A stretch of 21,181 bases of DNA, taken from positions 1-21,181 of the IMG/VR virus record IMGVR_UViG_3300048883_000426; one strand, given 5' to 3'. The notes below the pieces were generated by a model. That model did no database searches and was not told the DNA's origin. It was given only the letters and a program-made list of their open reading frames with translations. Source of the DNA: a virus. This document shows, one piece after another, positions 98 through 7,088 of this stretch; position 1 is the first letter of the stretch; each line of letters starts with the position of its first letter. Position numbers and translations under genes: made by a program.

Positions 98-370
98 TTA
101 CCTGTCATAGTTAAATCTGTATTTATGCCATATACCATTATCAGTTAACACCTCAACCGATTTTATACTAGTGGAAGTATCCAAACAACCATAACATAAT
201 CCTATTTTATATTTTTCACCAATAACATAGTATGAACCTATCTTATTACACGTATCACAATGTAAAGTAGTACTATATCTTTCAAGTGAGTAGCCTGTAT
301 CAGTACATTCCTTATCAGTCCAATATACTTTGAGTGTTTTATTCAAGTTGATTATCTCTCCATGATTCAT
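98..370 (-). CDS. Small zinc-ribbon protein, 90 residues
   Basis: Ninety residues with two Cys pairs, C38-x2-C41 and C59-x2-C62, spaced as in a zinc ribbon; the regions between are mixed polar and aromatic. There is no signal peptide or membrane segment. Such four-Cys domains usually bind one zinc and serve nucleic-acid or protein contact, but no specific family is recognised. Its start overlaps the preceding gene (339-524) by 32 bases in another frame, fitting a translationally coupled operon. Function unknown; the coding call rests on operon position, codon continuity and the zinc-ligand pattern. Confidence 0.65.
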   Translation of the reverse strand: MNHGEIINLNKTLKVYWTDKECTDTGYSLERYSTTLHCDTCNKIGSYYVIGEKYKIGLCYGCLDTSTSIKSVEVLTDNGIWHKYRFNYDR

Positions 371-524
371 AAGCTAAATCCTCATCATACCCATCACCAT
401 TACATTCTGGGCATGGAAGTGTTTCACATCCATCATCATTATCATCACCAAAATATGAATGTCTTATACCACCATATTCTATGTAACCTTCACCTTCACA
501 TTCTTTACAATCTTTATCTGTCAT
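339..524 (-). CDS. Small DnaJ-type zinc-finger protein
   Basis: Sixty-one residues carrying two motifs of the DnaJ central-domain type: CKECEGEG at residues 6-13 and CPECNGDG at 38-45 (general form CxxCxGxG), with an extra C33 and an acidic linker. In DnaJ these motifs bind zinc and contact unfolded proteins; here there is no J domain, so it is a free-standing zinc module. A GGAGAG ribosome site sits just before the ATG, inside the end of the upstream gene, and the two genes overlap by 11 bases. It might act as a small chaperone-like or protein-binding factor, but this is only inference. Confidence 0.65.
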   Translation of the reverse strand: MTDKDCKECEGEGYIEYGGIRHSYFGDDNDDGCETLPCPECNGDGYDEDLAYESWRDNQLE

Positions 525-720
525 AATCTATCTCTCCTTCAATACCAAACAAACATTCGTTACAACATCCATTTTCAAGTGGTAATTCTTCACTATGTTC
601 ATATATTTTTTGTTTGCACATATTACAAATTTCATATTTACCCTCATCATCTTTACCTGTTATTACTTCATCCTCATAATAAGTCTTAATATGTAAATCA
701 ATCAAATAATCTACACTCAT
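514..720 (-). CDS. Small Cys-rich protein, 68 residues
   Basis: Sixty-eight residues, acidic, with C32-x2-C35 and a C52-C53-x2-C56 cluster that together could hold one zinc. The start ATG shares bases with the stop of the 35-residue gene upstream (ATGA overlap), a strong sign of coupled translation. The N-terminal 30 residues carry no recognisable motif. No family is recognised. It belongs to the same run of overlapping zinc-ligand micro-genes, and its role is unknown. Confidence 0.6.
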   Translation of the reverse strand: MSVDYLIDLHIKTYYEDEVITGKDDEGKYEICNMCKQKIYEHSEELPLENGCCNECLFGIEGEIDYDR

Positions 721-1840: not shown

Positions 1841-1996
1841 GTGCTTACTATTATATTCTTTGACTATCTCTGGGTAGTCATGTGTTAACCAATCATTTAT
1901 CTCTGCGTGCCTGATTGTATTACACTCACTACACCAATCACATTCTTGATGTGATATCTCTACCTCTCTACATATTACACACATCATTTTACTCAT
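1835..1996 (-). CDS. Small zinc-ribbon protein, 53 residues
   Basis: Fifty-three codons starting MSKMMCVICR, with C6-x2-C9 and then C19, C22 and C25 followed by H30, a plausible zinc site. The C-terminal half (DWLTHDYPEI and beyond) is likely helical. Translation might begin at M4 or M5 instead. It is the last gene of the operon from 5182 and its stop falls in the inverted repeat at 1790-1840. No known family. Confidence 0.6.
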   Translation of the reverse strand: MSKMMCVICREVEISHQECDWCSECNTIRHAEINDWLTHDYPEIVKEYNSKHI

Positions 1997-2051
1997 CATA
2001 ATCATCATCATCTTTCATAAGCCAAGCCCACTCAGCTCTCTCTTTACTCAT
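1989..2051 (-). CDS. 20-residue acidic micro-ORF
   Basis: A 20-codon frame (MSKERAEWAW start, then a run of Asp) whose ATG overlaps the TGA of the C2H2-like gene by four bases and whose end overlaps the next gene. Evidence is only this overlap pattern, which is the rule in this operon; it may be untranslated. Confidence 0.3.
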   Translation of the reverse strand: MSKERAEWAWLMKDDDDYDE

Positions 2052-2191
2052 GACCATTCAACCTTACCTTCAACAGTATTTCTTTTATCTCTCTTACAAT
2101 GTAGATGCCATGAAGCATGTCTAGTTAATTGTTGTTTAACCATTGATGATTCATCAAACTCTTGGGGACATAAGTTACATTTATATGTCAT
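2048..2191 (-). CDS. C2H2-like zinc-finger microprotein, 47 residues
   Basis: Forty-seven codons with C5-x2-C8, a Phe at the expected place (PQEF), then a helix carrying H25, H29 and H31, close to the C2H2 finger pattern C-x2-C-x(n)-H-x3-H. The tail is basic (CKRDKRN). Such single fingers are common in archaeal viruses and usually bind DNA. The ATG overlaps the TGA of the amidotransferase gene (ATGA), so it is probably co-translated with it. DNA binding is inferred from the fold, not seen directly. Confidence 0.65.
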   Translation of the reverse strand: MTYKCNLCPQEFDESSMVKQQLTRHASWHLHCKRDKRNTVEGKVEWS

Positions 2192-3051
2192 TTATATTCC
2201 CCCTTATTATAATACATTACCTCGTCTTCTATACTATGTTTCTGTAACATTAATTCTTCTTCCAAATCTAATCTGTTACCTATGTCATATATACTTGTCC
2301 CATCTGATAACATATCAGATATTTCTTCCTCACTCACTCCATATATATCAATGAGGTTAACCATCTCTAACTTCTCATCTTCATTAAGATAAGTTATTTG
2401 TTCAGTCATGTAATTGAATGGTTTATTAAACGTTGTCTTAGTTCCAAAAGATTGGAAGCCTGTGCCTGTAAAGTAATCATTACTACACTTCACACCATTA
2501 ACTTTACACCAACCATCACCAAACTTTGTTATACCTTTACTTGATAGTATCGCTATCTTATTCCAACCTGTTACTAGTTTGTTCATACCATTTCTTCCTA
2601 ACTTATGTGCAAGGTAAGCCATAATTCTACTGTCACTATAATTACCTCTTGGTATTGTTTGTGGTTTCTTACAGCCTTTTAAGTAGTTCACTAACACTTC
2701 AGCGTACTCACTCCACGTGCCGTTATGAAACAACACATCTTTAGTTATGTGACTTGCTTCCATGTTTAACTCTACCTTACTACTAATCTCAAACGGGTGG
2801 TTGAGATTCTTTTTAACACCACCAACACTAGCTATTCTAAAGTGAATGATAGCTGTGCTAATTCCTTTAGGCTTCAACTGTTTGTTGATGATTCTATTGA
2901 TTTGTTTTGCTTTGATGCCTTTCTTATATGATACAGTCTTATCATGATTCAACCATGCGATTGAGCCACCATGACTATTCATATCCTCTGCATCTTTGAG
3001 GTCATTCTTTGATGGATAGTTACCATCATCTATACACATTATTACACACAT
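2188..3051 (-). CDS. Class II glutamine amidotransferase (Ntn hydrolase)
   Basis: The protein (287 residues) starts MCVIMC; removal of Met would expose Cys2 as the N-terminal nucleophile that releases ammonia from glutamine. Other family marks follow in order: a GGSIAWL strand near residues 28-34, HFRIAS at 70-75 (substrate-binding loop), NHPF at 84-87, and FHNG at 108-111 (oxyanion/Gly-rich loop). This resembles stand-alone GAT-II proteins of phages and YafJ-like enzymes, without a synthetase domain. Its gene lies three bases after the amidoligase stop, with an excellent GAGGTGATC ribosome site, so the pair is made together. Established work on amidoligases describes GAT-II neighbours; the likely job is to supply ammonia or to handle glutamyl amides for the amidoligase. 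The last about 60 residues are an acidic helical extension. Confidence 0.85.
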   Translation of the reverse strand: MCVIMCIDDGNYPSKNDLKDAEDMNSHGGSIAWLNHDKTVSYKKGIKAKQINRIINKQLKPKGISTAIIHFRIASVGGVKKNLNHPFEISSKVELNMEASHITKDVLFHNGTWSEYAEVLVNYLKGCKKPQTIPRGNYSDSRIMAYLAHKLGRNGMNKLVTGWNKIAILSSKGITKFGDGWCKVNGVKCSNDYFTGTGFQSFGTKTTFNKPFNYMTEQITYLNEDEKLEMVNLIDIYGVSEEEISDMLSDGTSIYDIGNRLDLEEELMLQKHSIEDEVMYYNKGEYK

Positions 3052-3054
3052 TTT

Positions 3055-4050
3055 CTAGATCACCTCCTTGATTTCTAAACTATGTATCTTTGGTTTGTGT
3101 TCATCCAAGTATGTATGTATTATTTCTAATACTTTATTACTTGCTTTGATTCTTAACTCTGGTTTCTGAAATGCTGGGAGCACTCTTATCTCTACTGTTC
3201 TATGTAATGCCCAGCAATAATTGATAAAGCAATATCTTTGGCTTGACTTTGTTGTGTCATACTTTTGTTCAAGTGGTCTAAAGTCATCTTTACAGAAACT
3301 ATTATGACCTTCTAATCTCCTAAAGAATGATGAGTCAACTTTAAGTTTATGCTCATGTCCCCACTTTAACAGTTTTTCTTTGAGTGTATTGTGAAAGTCT
3401 ACATCCATTAGTACTGCATACTCACGGTTTGTTATTCCACCTACATGTATGTGATGACCACATGTATTATTAGTACGTAGTATTGAATCTTCGTTAGCAC
3501 CAAGCCAACTAGTTGATTCATCTTCAGGTAATATTCTACTAACTACCTCTCCATCATCTCCTTCTCCGTTGGAGCAATCACATTCACAATTACATTCACA
3601 ACCACATTCAAAGTCACATTCATGTGACATATTATCGTTGGTTACACAGTTGTATACATGTTCATTGTCTATAAAGTGTGTTCTACATTTATCACACGCT
3701 AGATATTCATCATGATTCTTAAGTTGTATTACTTTACATGACTCACAATCATTATTAGAATGGTTTCTCATGTCACATTCACATGAATCTATATTCTCAT
3801 CACATCTAGAACATGTACGACATTCTTCACATGAACAGGCATCGCATGTATCATGACATATATCACATATATTACAACTTTCACATTCACAGTAGTCACG
3901 ACATTCACAGTCGTCTCTACAACTACCGTTACATTCACTACTATTACCGTCTACATCTACTGAACCGTCATGATGAAAGTCTCCTCTAATAATATCAGAT
4001 TTACTTATATTACCTTCGACTTCATGACCTACTGTAAAGTCACTCGTCAT
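3055..4050 (-). CDS. Amidoligase with 29-cysteine insertion
   Basis: At 331 residues this shows the landmarks of the putative amidoligase family (glutamine-synthetase-like COOH-NH2 ligases): GHEVE at 8-12, HDGSVD at 27-32, GEVVSRIL at 167-174, CGHHIHVG at 197-204 and RTVEIRVLP at 284-292, which in the family bind ATP-metal and substrate. Between DGSVD and GEVVS lies an insertion (about 40-160) with 29 Cys, many as CxC and CxxC, and many acidic residues, probably several zinc sites or a metal cluster. Family enzymes are thought to form amide or peptide bonds on small molecules or proteins. It is followed by the GAT-II gene and preceded, with an 11-base overlap, by an unknown 119-residue gene. 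A GGAG site precedes the ATG. Substrate unknown. Confidence 0.85.
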   Translation of the reverse strand: MTSDFTVGHEVEGNISKSDIIRGDFHHDGSVDVDGNSSECNGSCRDDCECRDYCECESCNICDICHDTCDACSCEECRTCSRCDENIDSCECDMRNHSNNDCESCKVIQLKNHDEYLACDKCRTHFIDNEHVYNCVTNDNMSHECDFECGCECNCECDCSNGEGDDGEVVSRILPEDESTSWLGANEDSILRTNNTCGHHIHVGGITNREYAVLMDVDFHNTLKEKLLKWGHEHKLKVDSSFFRRLEGHNSFCKDDFRPLEQKYDTTKSSQRYCFINYCWALHRTVEIRVLPAFQKPELRIKASNKVLEIIHTYLDEHKPKIHSLEIKEVI

Positions 4051-4399
4051 TATTTATCTCCATTATTTCAAGATAACTACGTTTCAATGAGTTGTATTTC
4101 AAATCACATTGTTTAGTCCAACTTTGTAACTCTTGATTCGAGTATGGTTGAGTATATCTATTTTTATACGCAGTTTGAACTTGTAATGTACTCATAAAAA
4201 ACAAATCTGCTTTGTCATCTAAACGCAATAAATAATCACGTGGGTCTTCTTGTAACATGTATCTGTATGGAAAATCTCCTTCATCATCTTCATAGTTATG
4301 TATGGTTTTGACTAGTCTACTAAATCCATTATTACATGTTGCTAATAACTCAATGCCTTCGTCAATAGGCACGAGTAGTACTTCAAGTTCAATCTCCAT
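4040..4399 (-). CDS. Hypothetical protein upstream of amidoligase, 119 residues
   Basis: This 119-residue acidic protein has an N-terminal strand-rich half (MEIELEVLLVPIDEG) and a helical C-terminal half (NQELQSWTKQCDLKYNSLKRS). It overlaps the preceding gene by 11 bases and the amidoligase gene by 11, with an AGGAG site before its ATG, so it is co-translated with the amidoligase and may be a partner or substrate. No Cys pairs, membrane segments or known motif are present. It is not recognised. Confidence 0.65.
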   Translation of the reverse strand: MEIELEVLLVPIDEGIELLATCNNGFSRLVKTIHNYEDDEGDFPYRYMLQEDPRDYLLRLDDKADLFFMSTLQVQTAYKNRYTQPYSNQELQSWTKQCDLKYNSLKRSYLEIMEINNDE

Positions 4400-4802
4400 T
4401 AGATTTCTCCTTTAGTACTAGCAAAGCACTTCCTGCTCTACTAAATGCTCCAAACCTCATCTTCTCGGGAAGTCCACGATATATTTGTGCTAAACCATTA
4501 ATAATATTCCTTGAGGGAATACTACCATCTTTGGTTTTAATCACAAAACCTCGTAATTCTTCCATCACACAATCGTTATCACTAGCAAATGTATTGCCAG
4601 CATTAAGAAACTCTTGCATGATTGGGTTTTCGGCTGATTTGCCAATTAAATTCTCAGGCTTTGAACCCAAACCCATTATATGCTTTACAGCACTAACAGC
4701 TTGACGGGATTCAATATCTCCCCTAGCTACTGTATTCATGATAATATCTATCACATTTTCAGTACTTGGGTGGTTGATTTCAGTCATGTTTAACTTTGTC
4801 AA
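4389..4802 (-). CDS. Hypothetical protein of the amidoligase operon, 137 residues
   Basis: A soluble, largely helical protein of 137 residues without known motifs; the middle contains a GLGSKPENLIGKSAENP linker. It starts with a TTG at 4802; an ATG five codons inside (4787, MTEINHPS) is an alternative start. Upstream is one copy of a 24-base repeat ending in GGGTTAAAACCC on this strand. Downstream it overlaps the 119-residue gene. Conserved proximity to the amidoligase cannot be tested from one sequence, so a functional link is only suggested. Confidence 0.6.
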   Translation of the reverse strand: MTKLNMTEINHPSTENVIDIIMNTVARGDIESRQAVSAVKHIMGLGSKPENLIGKSAENPIMQEFLNAGNTFASDNDCVMEELRGFVIKTKDGSIPSRNIINGLAQIYRGLPEKMRFGAFSRAGSALLVLKEKSNGD

Positions 4803-4824
4803 GTAAAAAGTGGGGTTTTAACCC
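4801..4824. repeat. 24-base direct repeat, copy 1
   Basis: Matches copy 2 (4911-4934) at 21 of 24 positions and contains the inverted repeat GGGTT-TTAACCC core. In both copies the minus-strand gene before it ends GGT-TAA within the repeat and the next gene starts just after it. Confidence 0.6.
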
Positions 4825-4910: not shown

Positions 4911-4934
4911 GAGTAAAAAGGTGGGTTTTAACCC
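4911..4934. repeat. 24-base direct repeat, copy 2
   Basis: Second copy of the repeat at 4801-4824 (21 of 24 identical), 110 bases away. It spans the GGT-TAA end of the 84-residue gene and a T-run (CCTTTTTAC) on the minus strand, so it could act as a weak terminator or a site for an internal start. Confidence 0.6.
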
Positions 4935-5844: not shown

Positions 5845-6450
5845 CTAGGCTTTATTCCTAATCTTATTCGAAATACCCTTTGGTCGACCACCTGCAAACT
5901 GAGGGTAGTTATTTCTAAGTCGTATCTTAACACAGTCTCTACAATATCTAGTCATATTACCAGTCATGGAATTTTTACTATACCCTGTATTTTGGAGGGT
6001 ACGCTTATGACCATTTCTACACTGTATATCTAAAATTAGTATACCATTATTTCTCCTAATTAAACCTATTTTTATACAAACAGGACAACCTCTTTTACCG
6101 TTCTTTTTATCCACAATAACTAAAGTATGACCATCCTTACAAGTTGTGGGGGGTATATGTAATTTACCTCCTATTCCTCTTCCACGCCTAAGGTTTTCTT
6201 TACGTGTAACTATTTCTAAATGATCAAGGTCTACACATAGTCTATTCCTACATAAATGATCTATGTCATAACCTTTTGGTATTTCTCCTTTATATACCAT
6301 GTAAAAAAATCTGTGTGCGTAAAACCTACCTTTGTTAAATTTTACTGATCCGTATCCTCCACTATGTTTCATACCAGTATACTCTAAACAAATACCATTA
6401 ACACGAACATTGTTTAAAATAGTGTCTAAACTAATAGTGTTTATCTTCAT
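5845..6450 (-). CDS. HNH endonuclease with two C-terminal zinc ribbons
   Basis: In this 201-residue protein the HNH_3-type core spans about residues 44-90: AHRFFYMVY, then YDIDHLCRNRLCVDLDHLEIV with D64-H65 (metal and general base), N69 and H77, completing the HNH site; C67 and C72 are the usual structural pair. The C-terminal half has two ribbon-like repeats, C104-x3-H108 with C122-x2-C125, and C144-x3-H148 with C170-x2-C173, probably DNA-contacting. Such free-standing nucleases are typical mobile or homing elements of tailed viruses and nick or cut DNA. A TATA box at 6472-6480, 26 bases before the ATG, gives it its own leaderless transcript. Oligo-T stretches downstream (minus strand, about 5757-5764 and 5797-5803) could end it. 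It borders the structured noncoding region. Confidence 0.85.
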   Translation of the reverse strand: MKINTISLDTILNNVRVNGICLEYTGMKHSGGYGSVKFNKGRFYAHRFFYMVYKGEIPKGYDIDHLCRNRLCVDLDHLEIVTRKENLRRGRGIGGKLHIPPTTCKDGHTLVIVDKKNGKRGCPVCIKIGLIRRNNGILILDIQCRNGHKRTLQNTGYSKNSMTGNMTRYCRDCVKIRLRNNYPQFAGGRPKGISNKIRNKA

Positions 6451-6810: not shown

Positions 6811-6957
6811 TCACCCTGTTCTAGGGAAACAATCTACACATATAATCTCATGTGATTCAGATAGTTCAACATTACTCTTAAAACATGCATGACATAACCC
6901 GAAATATTTTTCTTTATTACCTTTAATTAGATTCAATAAAGACTTTATTCCGAACAT
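6811..6957 (-). CDS. Small zinc-ribbon protein, 48 residues
   Basis: Forty-eight codons beginning MFGIKSLLNL, an amphipathic helix, followed by C22-x2-C25 and C40-x2-C43, a minimal four-Cys zinc ribbon (LCHAC ... CVDC). Its ATG overlaps the end of the upstream 47-residue gene by 13 bases. Too short for family assignment, but the ligand spacing is regular. Confidence 0.6.
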   Translation of the reverse strand: MFGIKSLLNLIKGNKEKYFGLCHACFKSNVELSESHEIICVDCFPRTG

Positions 6958-7088
6958 CTACTTATACATTCCTTTAATACATTTATACGATAGTCTCTCT
7001 CTGCACTTTTTGTCTCGTTTTCAATATTAGCAAGTACATTGTTAAAGTCTACTAAATGCTCTTTCTTTTGTTTGTCATCTGGGTACAT
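6945..7088 (-). CDS. Hypothetical helical protein, 47 residues
   Basis: Forty-seven codons starting MYPDDKQKKE, charged and predicted to be a long helix. A strong TATA box (TTTATATA, minus strand, 7110-7117) lies 26 bases before the ATG, so it can be made from its own leaderless mRNA even though it also lies within an operon. It overlaps the next zinc-ribbon gene. No known family. Confidence 0.55.
   Translation of the reverse strand: MYPDDKQKKEHLVDFNNVLANIENETKSAERDYRINVLKECISRCSE

Follow-up and report, generated by a model that had tools for sequence, protein, structure and literature searches.

We analysed 21,181 nucleotides (nt) of viral DNA, positions 1 to 21,181 of the IMG/VR record IMGVR_UViG_3300048883_000426 (hereafter the window), with the focus on a gene set that occupies the minus strand from position 4802 to 2188. 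Its four open reading frames (ORFs), which overlap or abut, encode two small proteins of 137 and 119 residues, an amidoligase that carries a Cys-rich insert and a class II glutamine amidotransferase (GAT-II). Their coordinates (Table 1) are those at which a preliminary description, made from the sequence alone, had placed four genes. The 137-residue and 119-residue ORFs overlap by 11 nt, as do the 119-residue and amidoligase ORFs, and a gap of 3 nt separates the amidoligase from GAT-II. Shine-Dalgarno-like sites were found before the last three genes and none before the first. Direct scans of the four proteins against Pfam, NCBIfam, PHROGs and PADLOC returned a weak GATase_6 match for GAT-II and nothing else, and a tblastn search of phage records gave no match for either the amidoligase or the GAT.

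In order to characterize the amidoligase, we aligned 22 sequences including that of the window. The core motifs GxExEG, DGSV, GE.VS, CGxHxH, RY..N and TxExR are intact, in order and invariant or nearly so. The enzyme identity proposed in the preliminary description is supported. Residues E10, E12, E168, H200, H202, R272, N277, T285, E287 and R289 are invariant. A profile of other amidoligases, containing no Cys-rich member but including Pfam-positive ones, matched the window protein with an E-value of 6e-47, and of 1.5e-51 when the insert was cut out. Comparison of the Cys-rich clade with the Pfam-positive group by hhalign gave E = 8e-6 over a short stretch. The cut-off of the Amidoligase_2 family (PF12224) is passed by the relatives L014 (72 bits) and L178 (24.9 bits), and weak matches to this family were seen in 5 of the 11 Cys-rich amidoligases (best E = 0.0022). 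Because the window protein does not reach the cut-off, we class it by sequence as a divergent relative of Amidoligase_2 and not as a Pfam member. Its AlphaFold2 model (pLDDT 81.8) retrieved phage amidoligases from BFVD with Foldseek (E from 2e-4), while all 18 best matches in the PDB were glutamine synthetase, YbdK or YbdK-like proteins, each of them weak (E 0.08-3.6). Sequence searches of the PDB with the amidoligase and GAT alignments returned nothing. A GS/GCS fold (glutamine synthetase/GCS) is well supported for the modelled enzyme, which shares with glutamine synthetase and YbdK (GCS2) the order of the metal/ATP-site motifs. Judged by what is generally known of glutamine synthetase, the G-x-H-x-H motif and the T-x-E-x-R strand resemble its metal/ATP site. 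The viral enzyme differs from these proteins by its insert, and its ammonia would come from the separate GAT-II.

GAT-II retains the N-terminal nucleophile Cys2 and the motifs FRIAS, HPF, NGTW and SDSR. Residues invariant among 8 viral sequences include C2, R72, A74-S75, H85-P86-F87, N110-G111 and D140. The protein thus displays the N-terminal Cys, the Arg motif, the NG oxyanion hole and the Asp of class II glutamine amidotransferases, roles that we take from knowledge of the family. Relatives of the locus were searched from GAT-II: 105 viral ones were found, the best 80 of which were examined. Of these 80 loci, 77 have an amidoligase no more than 700 nt upstream of GAT-II; two of the three exceptions are cut by the contig start, and the third (L087) holds a truncated amidoligase (118-residue fragment). 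The coupling to a class II GAT put forward in the preliminary description is borne out. Among 44 GAT relatives in bacterial genomes, nearly all from Verrucomicrobia, 28 have the amidoligase upstream; some of the others have too little upstream DNA, and in seven with enough DNA the profiles used detected no full-length amidoligase. A search for related loci from one distant amidoligase returned only the query itself. In L046 and L181, the amidoligase has beside it a second ligase-like ORF, which looks similar to phage COOH-NH2 ligases by eye.

The amidoligase contains 33 Cys in total, exactly 29 of which lie at residues 40-159, matching the 29 Cys counted earlier at about residues 40-160. With a background of 1.1% Cys in ten other window proteins, 29 Cys in 120 residues corresponds to a binomial P of about 1e-29. 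The insert spans 126 residues (38-163) and is placed between the core strands DGSV and GEVVS. Eleven distinct sequences, including that of the window, have 21-35 Cys in the amidoligase, this region holds a short loop with Cys in 8 others, and the rest have none. Twenty columns of the insert are kept in at least 10 of the 11 Cys-rich sequences, and every one of them is Cys. In a tree of the partner GAT-II, the Cys-rich members form a single clade (99/94) nested among relatives with the short Cys loop. By this sequence tree, we take it as firm that the rich form of the insert arose once within this virus lineage; it is the only firm result of the tree, because some deep rows have long branches. 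Since relatives outside one clade have the pair without the Cys domain, this domain is a late addition and not a part of the basic amidoligase-GAT machine. Related genomes carrying the genes separately and without the Cys domain had been named beforehand as an observation that would refute the coupled system. The Cys domain is indeed missing outside one clade, but separation of the genes was almost never seen where flanking DNA was available.

The 20 near-invariant Cys support the metal binding suggested in the preliminary description. The insert likely binds metal, most likely zinc, and this number of Cys would suit about five metal sites. No known zinc domain was matched by the insert in Pfam or in PDB sequences. 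In the fold search, a viral protein at rank 45 (BFVD, E about 0.1) is annotated with a LIM domain. We considered whether the domain could chiefly store metal or act as a redox switch, in the manner of metallothionein, with no part in substrate choice. Its very high Cys content, its acidic composition and the absence of a similar zinc domain in Pfam or the PDB would be in line with such a role. However, the Cys keep fixed positions in 11 sequences, part of the insert (residues 61-90) is modelled with high confidence (pLDDT about 88-92), and the insert lies within the enzyme core, so that we regard a mere store or switch as distinctly unlikely.

Clear homologues of the two small upstream proteins are encoded in the closest relative, L018, where their order is the same (50% identity for the 137-residue protein, 28% for the 119-residue protein at the same place). 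The 137-residue protein also has a homologue in L009 (E = 2e-6, hhalign 4e-10) and matches no family. In other Cys-rich relatives, that place is taken by one or two ORFs too divergent for confident alignment. The idea that the gene set stays together thus held clearly for the closest relative, with divergent ORFs in the others. In relatives without the large insert, the amidoligase is directly preceded by, or fused at its N-terminus to, a member of a third partner family, which we call P. Leave-one-out profiles recovered most P members at E-values of 1e-5 to 1e-17, with weaker results for L045, L038 and L031. P was not seen upstream in the GC-rich bacterial group, and a fold search with a P model (pLDDT 71) gave no meaningful match in the PDB. 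The 119-residue ORF could not be accepted as a proven P member, its own match being not significant (rank 11 of 345); by its position, it likely belongs to P. A small acidic peptide of 45-63 residues (approximately MYxDD...H..DF/DW...EYR...IKECI) is conserved upstream of the cassette in many relatives. We rejected it as a candidate substrate tag, as its C-terminus is not conserved and its gene does not always adjoin the cassette.

To place the virus, we looked at its other genes. Among phage records, the capsid protein matches haloarchaeal tailed viruses only, and in most of the sister contigs with this gene its identity is 83-93%. A 42-kb sister record, in which the amidoligase, GAT and capsid genes are 100% identical to those of the window, encodes an MCM protein (9e-73), a Rad51/RadA protein (2e-51), a MoxR-type AAA ATPase (AAA_5, 6e-12) with a VWA partner and a matrixin-like protease. 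The MCM and Rad51/RadA proteins, together with the capsid matches, support the archaeal virus setting proposed earlier. The genes radA and CobS have been described as characteristic of Marthavirus, whose members are tailed viruses that infect marine ammonia-oxidising archaea (PMC7678222). Compared by the gene content described there, our virus is alike in having RadA and a CobS-like AAA ATPase in an archaeal tailed virus. The host assignment comes from archaeal-type genes and the description of Marthavirus genes; infection of marine ammonia-oxidising archaea is therefore probable but not proven. In sister virus genomes, the MoxR-type AAA ATPase and VWA pair (CobS/CobT-like) is encoded about 3-4 kb downstream of GAT-II on the cassette strand, and the matrixin-like metalloprotease matches PF00413 (E about 1e-5).

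Amidoligase-GAT pairs are well known in bacteriophages, so that the preliminary view of an undescribed system does not stand for the whole. Such pairs were reported in OM43 phages (PMC10580990) and, within a peptidoglycan cassette, in RIO-1 and phiEco32-like phages (PMC5498523); cell-wall modification against superinfection is attributed to phiEco32 (Iyer et al. 2009, as cited in PMC10580990). Phage pairs of Amidoligase_2 (PF12224) with a class II GATase, as in Kovu (gp97-gp98), the OM43 phages and Pseudomonas phage tf, bring both enzyme kinds together in one virus and share core motifs and predicted fold with the pair of the window. In Arthrobacter phage Kovu, a cyclotransferase, the amidoligase and the GAT follow in a row: gp97 and gp98 are adjacent in the same order as here, whereas the additional gamma-glutamyl cyclotransferase has no counterpart in the window cassette. 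Conversely, the window has the 126-residue Cys-rich insert, the two extra upstream proteins and the archaeal virus context. The RIO-1/phiEco32-like podovirus cassette is similar in its GAT and amidoligase members and in its location outside the structural module. It differs by its roughly seven genes (with ATP-grasp, second ligase and cyclotransferase) and its murein-walled host, neither of which applies here. No ATP-grasp, second COOH-NH2 ligase or cyclotransferase was found among the cassette ORFs with Pfam, PHROGs and NCBIfam, and the archaeal replication genes and halovirus-type capsid indirectly speak against a peptidoglycan-walled bacterial host. We thus rejected, on gene content and host, the filing of this locus as a peptidoglycan modification cassette of the RIO-1/phiEco32 type. 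Archaea lack murein, and peptidoglycan is not the likely target because the virus looks archaeal (MCM, RadA, halovirus-type capsid).

In related phage cassettes, the amidoligase is accompanied by a COOH-NH2 ligase, an ATP-grasp enzyme and a gamma-glutamyl cyclotransferase, a set that would suit peptide chemistry. On this basis, the window amidoligase might instead join an amino acid or a small peptide to its substrate, GAT-II being a plain glutaminase or an amide-trimming enzyme and not an ammonia donor. The lack of these partners in the cassette and the near-universal adjacency of GAT-II, which suggests direct ammonia transfer, make such ligation unlikely.

GAT-II was also noted in the haloarchaeal viruses PhiCh1 and ChaoS9 (PMC8651126). 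As in the window, PhiCh1 (a Natrialba phage; ORF40 and corrected ORF41/42) and ChaoS9 (a Halobacterium phage; gp44-gp45) have this enzyme in an archaeal tailed virus. In both, an uncharacterised protein of 355-357 residues is encoded 4 nt upstream of GAT-II and shows colinear GMExE, GSHVH and TIELR motifs; it differs from the window enzyme in having no Cys domain. Because its match to the amidoligase profile is not significant (hhalign E 0.055), this is a motif-level suggestion only: the protein is possibly an unannotated amidoligase of cultured haloarchaeal viruses.

The gene set, the intact core residues, the fold, the near-universal pairing, the single origin of the insert and the archaeal-type virus genes are results of computation, onto which we place a model of the ammonia transfer, metal, docking role, target and benefit. 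We propose a glutamine-dependent, ATP-driven amidation cassette of an archaeal tailed virus, with a zinc-bound Cys docking module and a host target other than murein, a reading in which our belief and our doubt are about equal. GAT-II would hydrolyse glutamine and hand the ammonia to the adjacent GS-fold amidoligase, which would activate a carboxylate with ATP and metal to form an amide. The Cys-rich insert would fold round several metal ions, most likely zinc, and serve as a docking module, specific to this clade, by which the substrate reaches the active site; the small upstream proteins would be accessory subunits. In this model, the substrate is a macromolecule of the host, not peptidoglycan but most likely a protein or glycan of the surface, whose modification could serve superinfection exclusion or host takeover. 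Several points weigh against this proposal. The window amidoligase matches no Pfam family, including PF12224 with its cut-off of 22 bits, and none of its PDB fold matches is significant taken singly. GAT-II matches PF13522 (GATase_6) at E = 2e-4 and 21.8 bits, under the Pfam cut-off of 27 bits. The host is deduced from gene content and not from a spacer or an isolate, and enzyme activity, bound metal and substrate are predictions.

The preliminary description had left a virion protein, a host protein or a small molecule as targets. The pair is present in all 5 long sister genomes, with identities of 28-35% for the amidoligase and 43-55% for GAT-II, compared with 84-90% for the capsid protein. 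Such fast divergence would suit a host-facing function, but it also fits relaxed constraint. In favour of a cassette that modifies the virus's own virion, through amidation or cross-linking of capsid or tail proteins for example, one can cite its occurrence in all long sister genomes, as would befit a core function, and a divergence that resembles that of some tail-region genes (24-30%). Yet the cassette is not conserved as the capsid protein is, and comparable phage cassettes are located among replication genes (PMC5498523; PMC3517423). The transcription of the window cassette runs opposite to that of the structural genes, which makes a virion target appear less likely than a host target, and we hold it to be quite unlikely. 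A small metabolite or modified nucleotide, such as an amide for DNA modification, seems to us very unlikely. In some phages, DNA modification does involve glutamine amidotransferases, and 7-deazaguanine DNA is used by haloarchaeal viruses (PMC8651126), but no queuosine-type enzyme was found among the selected ORFs scanned on the 42-kb sister record, a weak argument given this selection. For the favoured amidation of a host target, one could further imagine that archaeal viruses have re-aimed the phage amidation machine at acidic cell-surface groups (S-layer protein or glycans) through a metal-bound docking domain and a dedicated partner protein, giving an archaea-specific superinfection exclusion; we consider this fairly unlikely.

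Several further features surround the cassette (Table 1). Directly upstream, two copies of a palindrome are followed by T's; they are possibly terminators or promoter parts. Farther upstream, an HNH endonuclease gene (PF13392, E = 6e-15) separates the cassette from its usual upstream small genes. It is shared with the 42-kb sister record and found in no other record compared, and is therefore probably a mobile insertion. Downstream of the cassette lies a cluster of small Cys-rich ORFs with CxxC pairs, typical of small zinc proteins.

Table 1. Coordinates of the cassette genes and of other features in the window and in compared records (L numbers).
Feature	Record	Position	Strand	Remarks
137-residue protein	window	4389..4802	-	first cassette gene; listed with TTG start, ATG at 4787 is a possible alternative
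119-residue protein	window	4040..4399	-	occupies the place of third partner family P
Predicted GS-fold amidoligase with Cys-rich insert, 331 residues	window	3055..4050	-	invariant residues, profile match, AlphaFold2, Foldseek
Cys-rich insert, amidoligase residues 38-163	window	3562..3939	-	presumed zinc-binding; 20 conserved Cys columns
GAT-II, 287 residues	window	2188..3051	-	Met-Cys start; Cys2 is the presumed nucleophile
Strong Shine-Dalgarno of GAT-II, AAGGAGGTGATC (listed as GGAGGTGATC)	window	3058..3067	-	within last amidoligase codons; from sequence
Protein upstream of GAT-II	L189 (ChaoS9)	2423-3496
Protein upstream of GAT-II	L190 (PhiCh1)	1929-2996		two overlapping ORFs in older PhiCh1 record
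Second ligase-like ORF	L046; L181	1993-3156; 1707-2720
Acidic peptide, 45-63 residues	window	6945-7088	-
Acidic peptide, 45-63 residues	L022; L025; L029	1290-1427; 1114-1272; 1168-1305
Acidic peptide, further copies	L009; L023; L027	3348-3503; 923-1081; 1635-1826
MoxR-type AAA ATPase and VWA pair	L143; L140	7626-10385; 2516-5281	cassette strand
Matrixin-like metalloprotease	L143; L139	19160-19975; 12249-13103
Palindrome copies then T's (GGGTTAAAACCC..CTTTTTAC)	window	4803-4824; 4912-4933	-
HNH endonuclease gene	window	5845-6450	-
Small Cys-rich ORF cluster	window	98-720	-

The amidoligase-GAT pair itself is already known in bacteriophages, where it is usually explained as a peptidoglycan modifier that blocks superinfection. 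What appears new from the sequences compared here is the Cys insert between two core strands, with its single origin among short-Cys-loop relatives, and a third partner, family P, which immediately precedes the amidoligase in many relatives or is fused to it. New as well is the pair in an archaeal-looking virus, where the standard explanation does not fit. The insert provides a clear example of a domain grown inside an enzyme core within one virus lineage. For years, the role of the phage pair has been guessed to be peptidoglycan modification; this guess cannot be general, because a conserved version occurs in viruses of archaea, which have no peptidoglycan. The archaeal version narrows the target to one that is common to both worlds or that was re-aimed in archaea. 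Should the motif-level resemblance seen in ChaoS9 and PhiCh1 prove correct, cultured haloarchaea would allow the question of the target to be tested.

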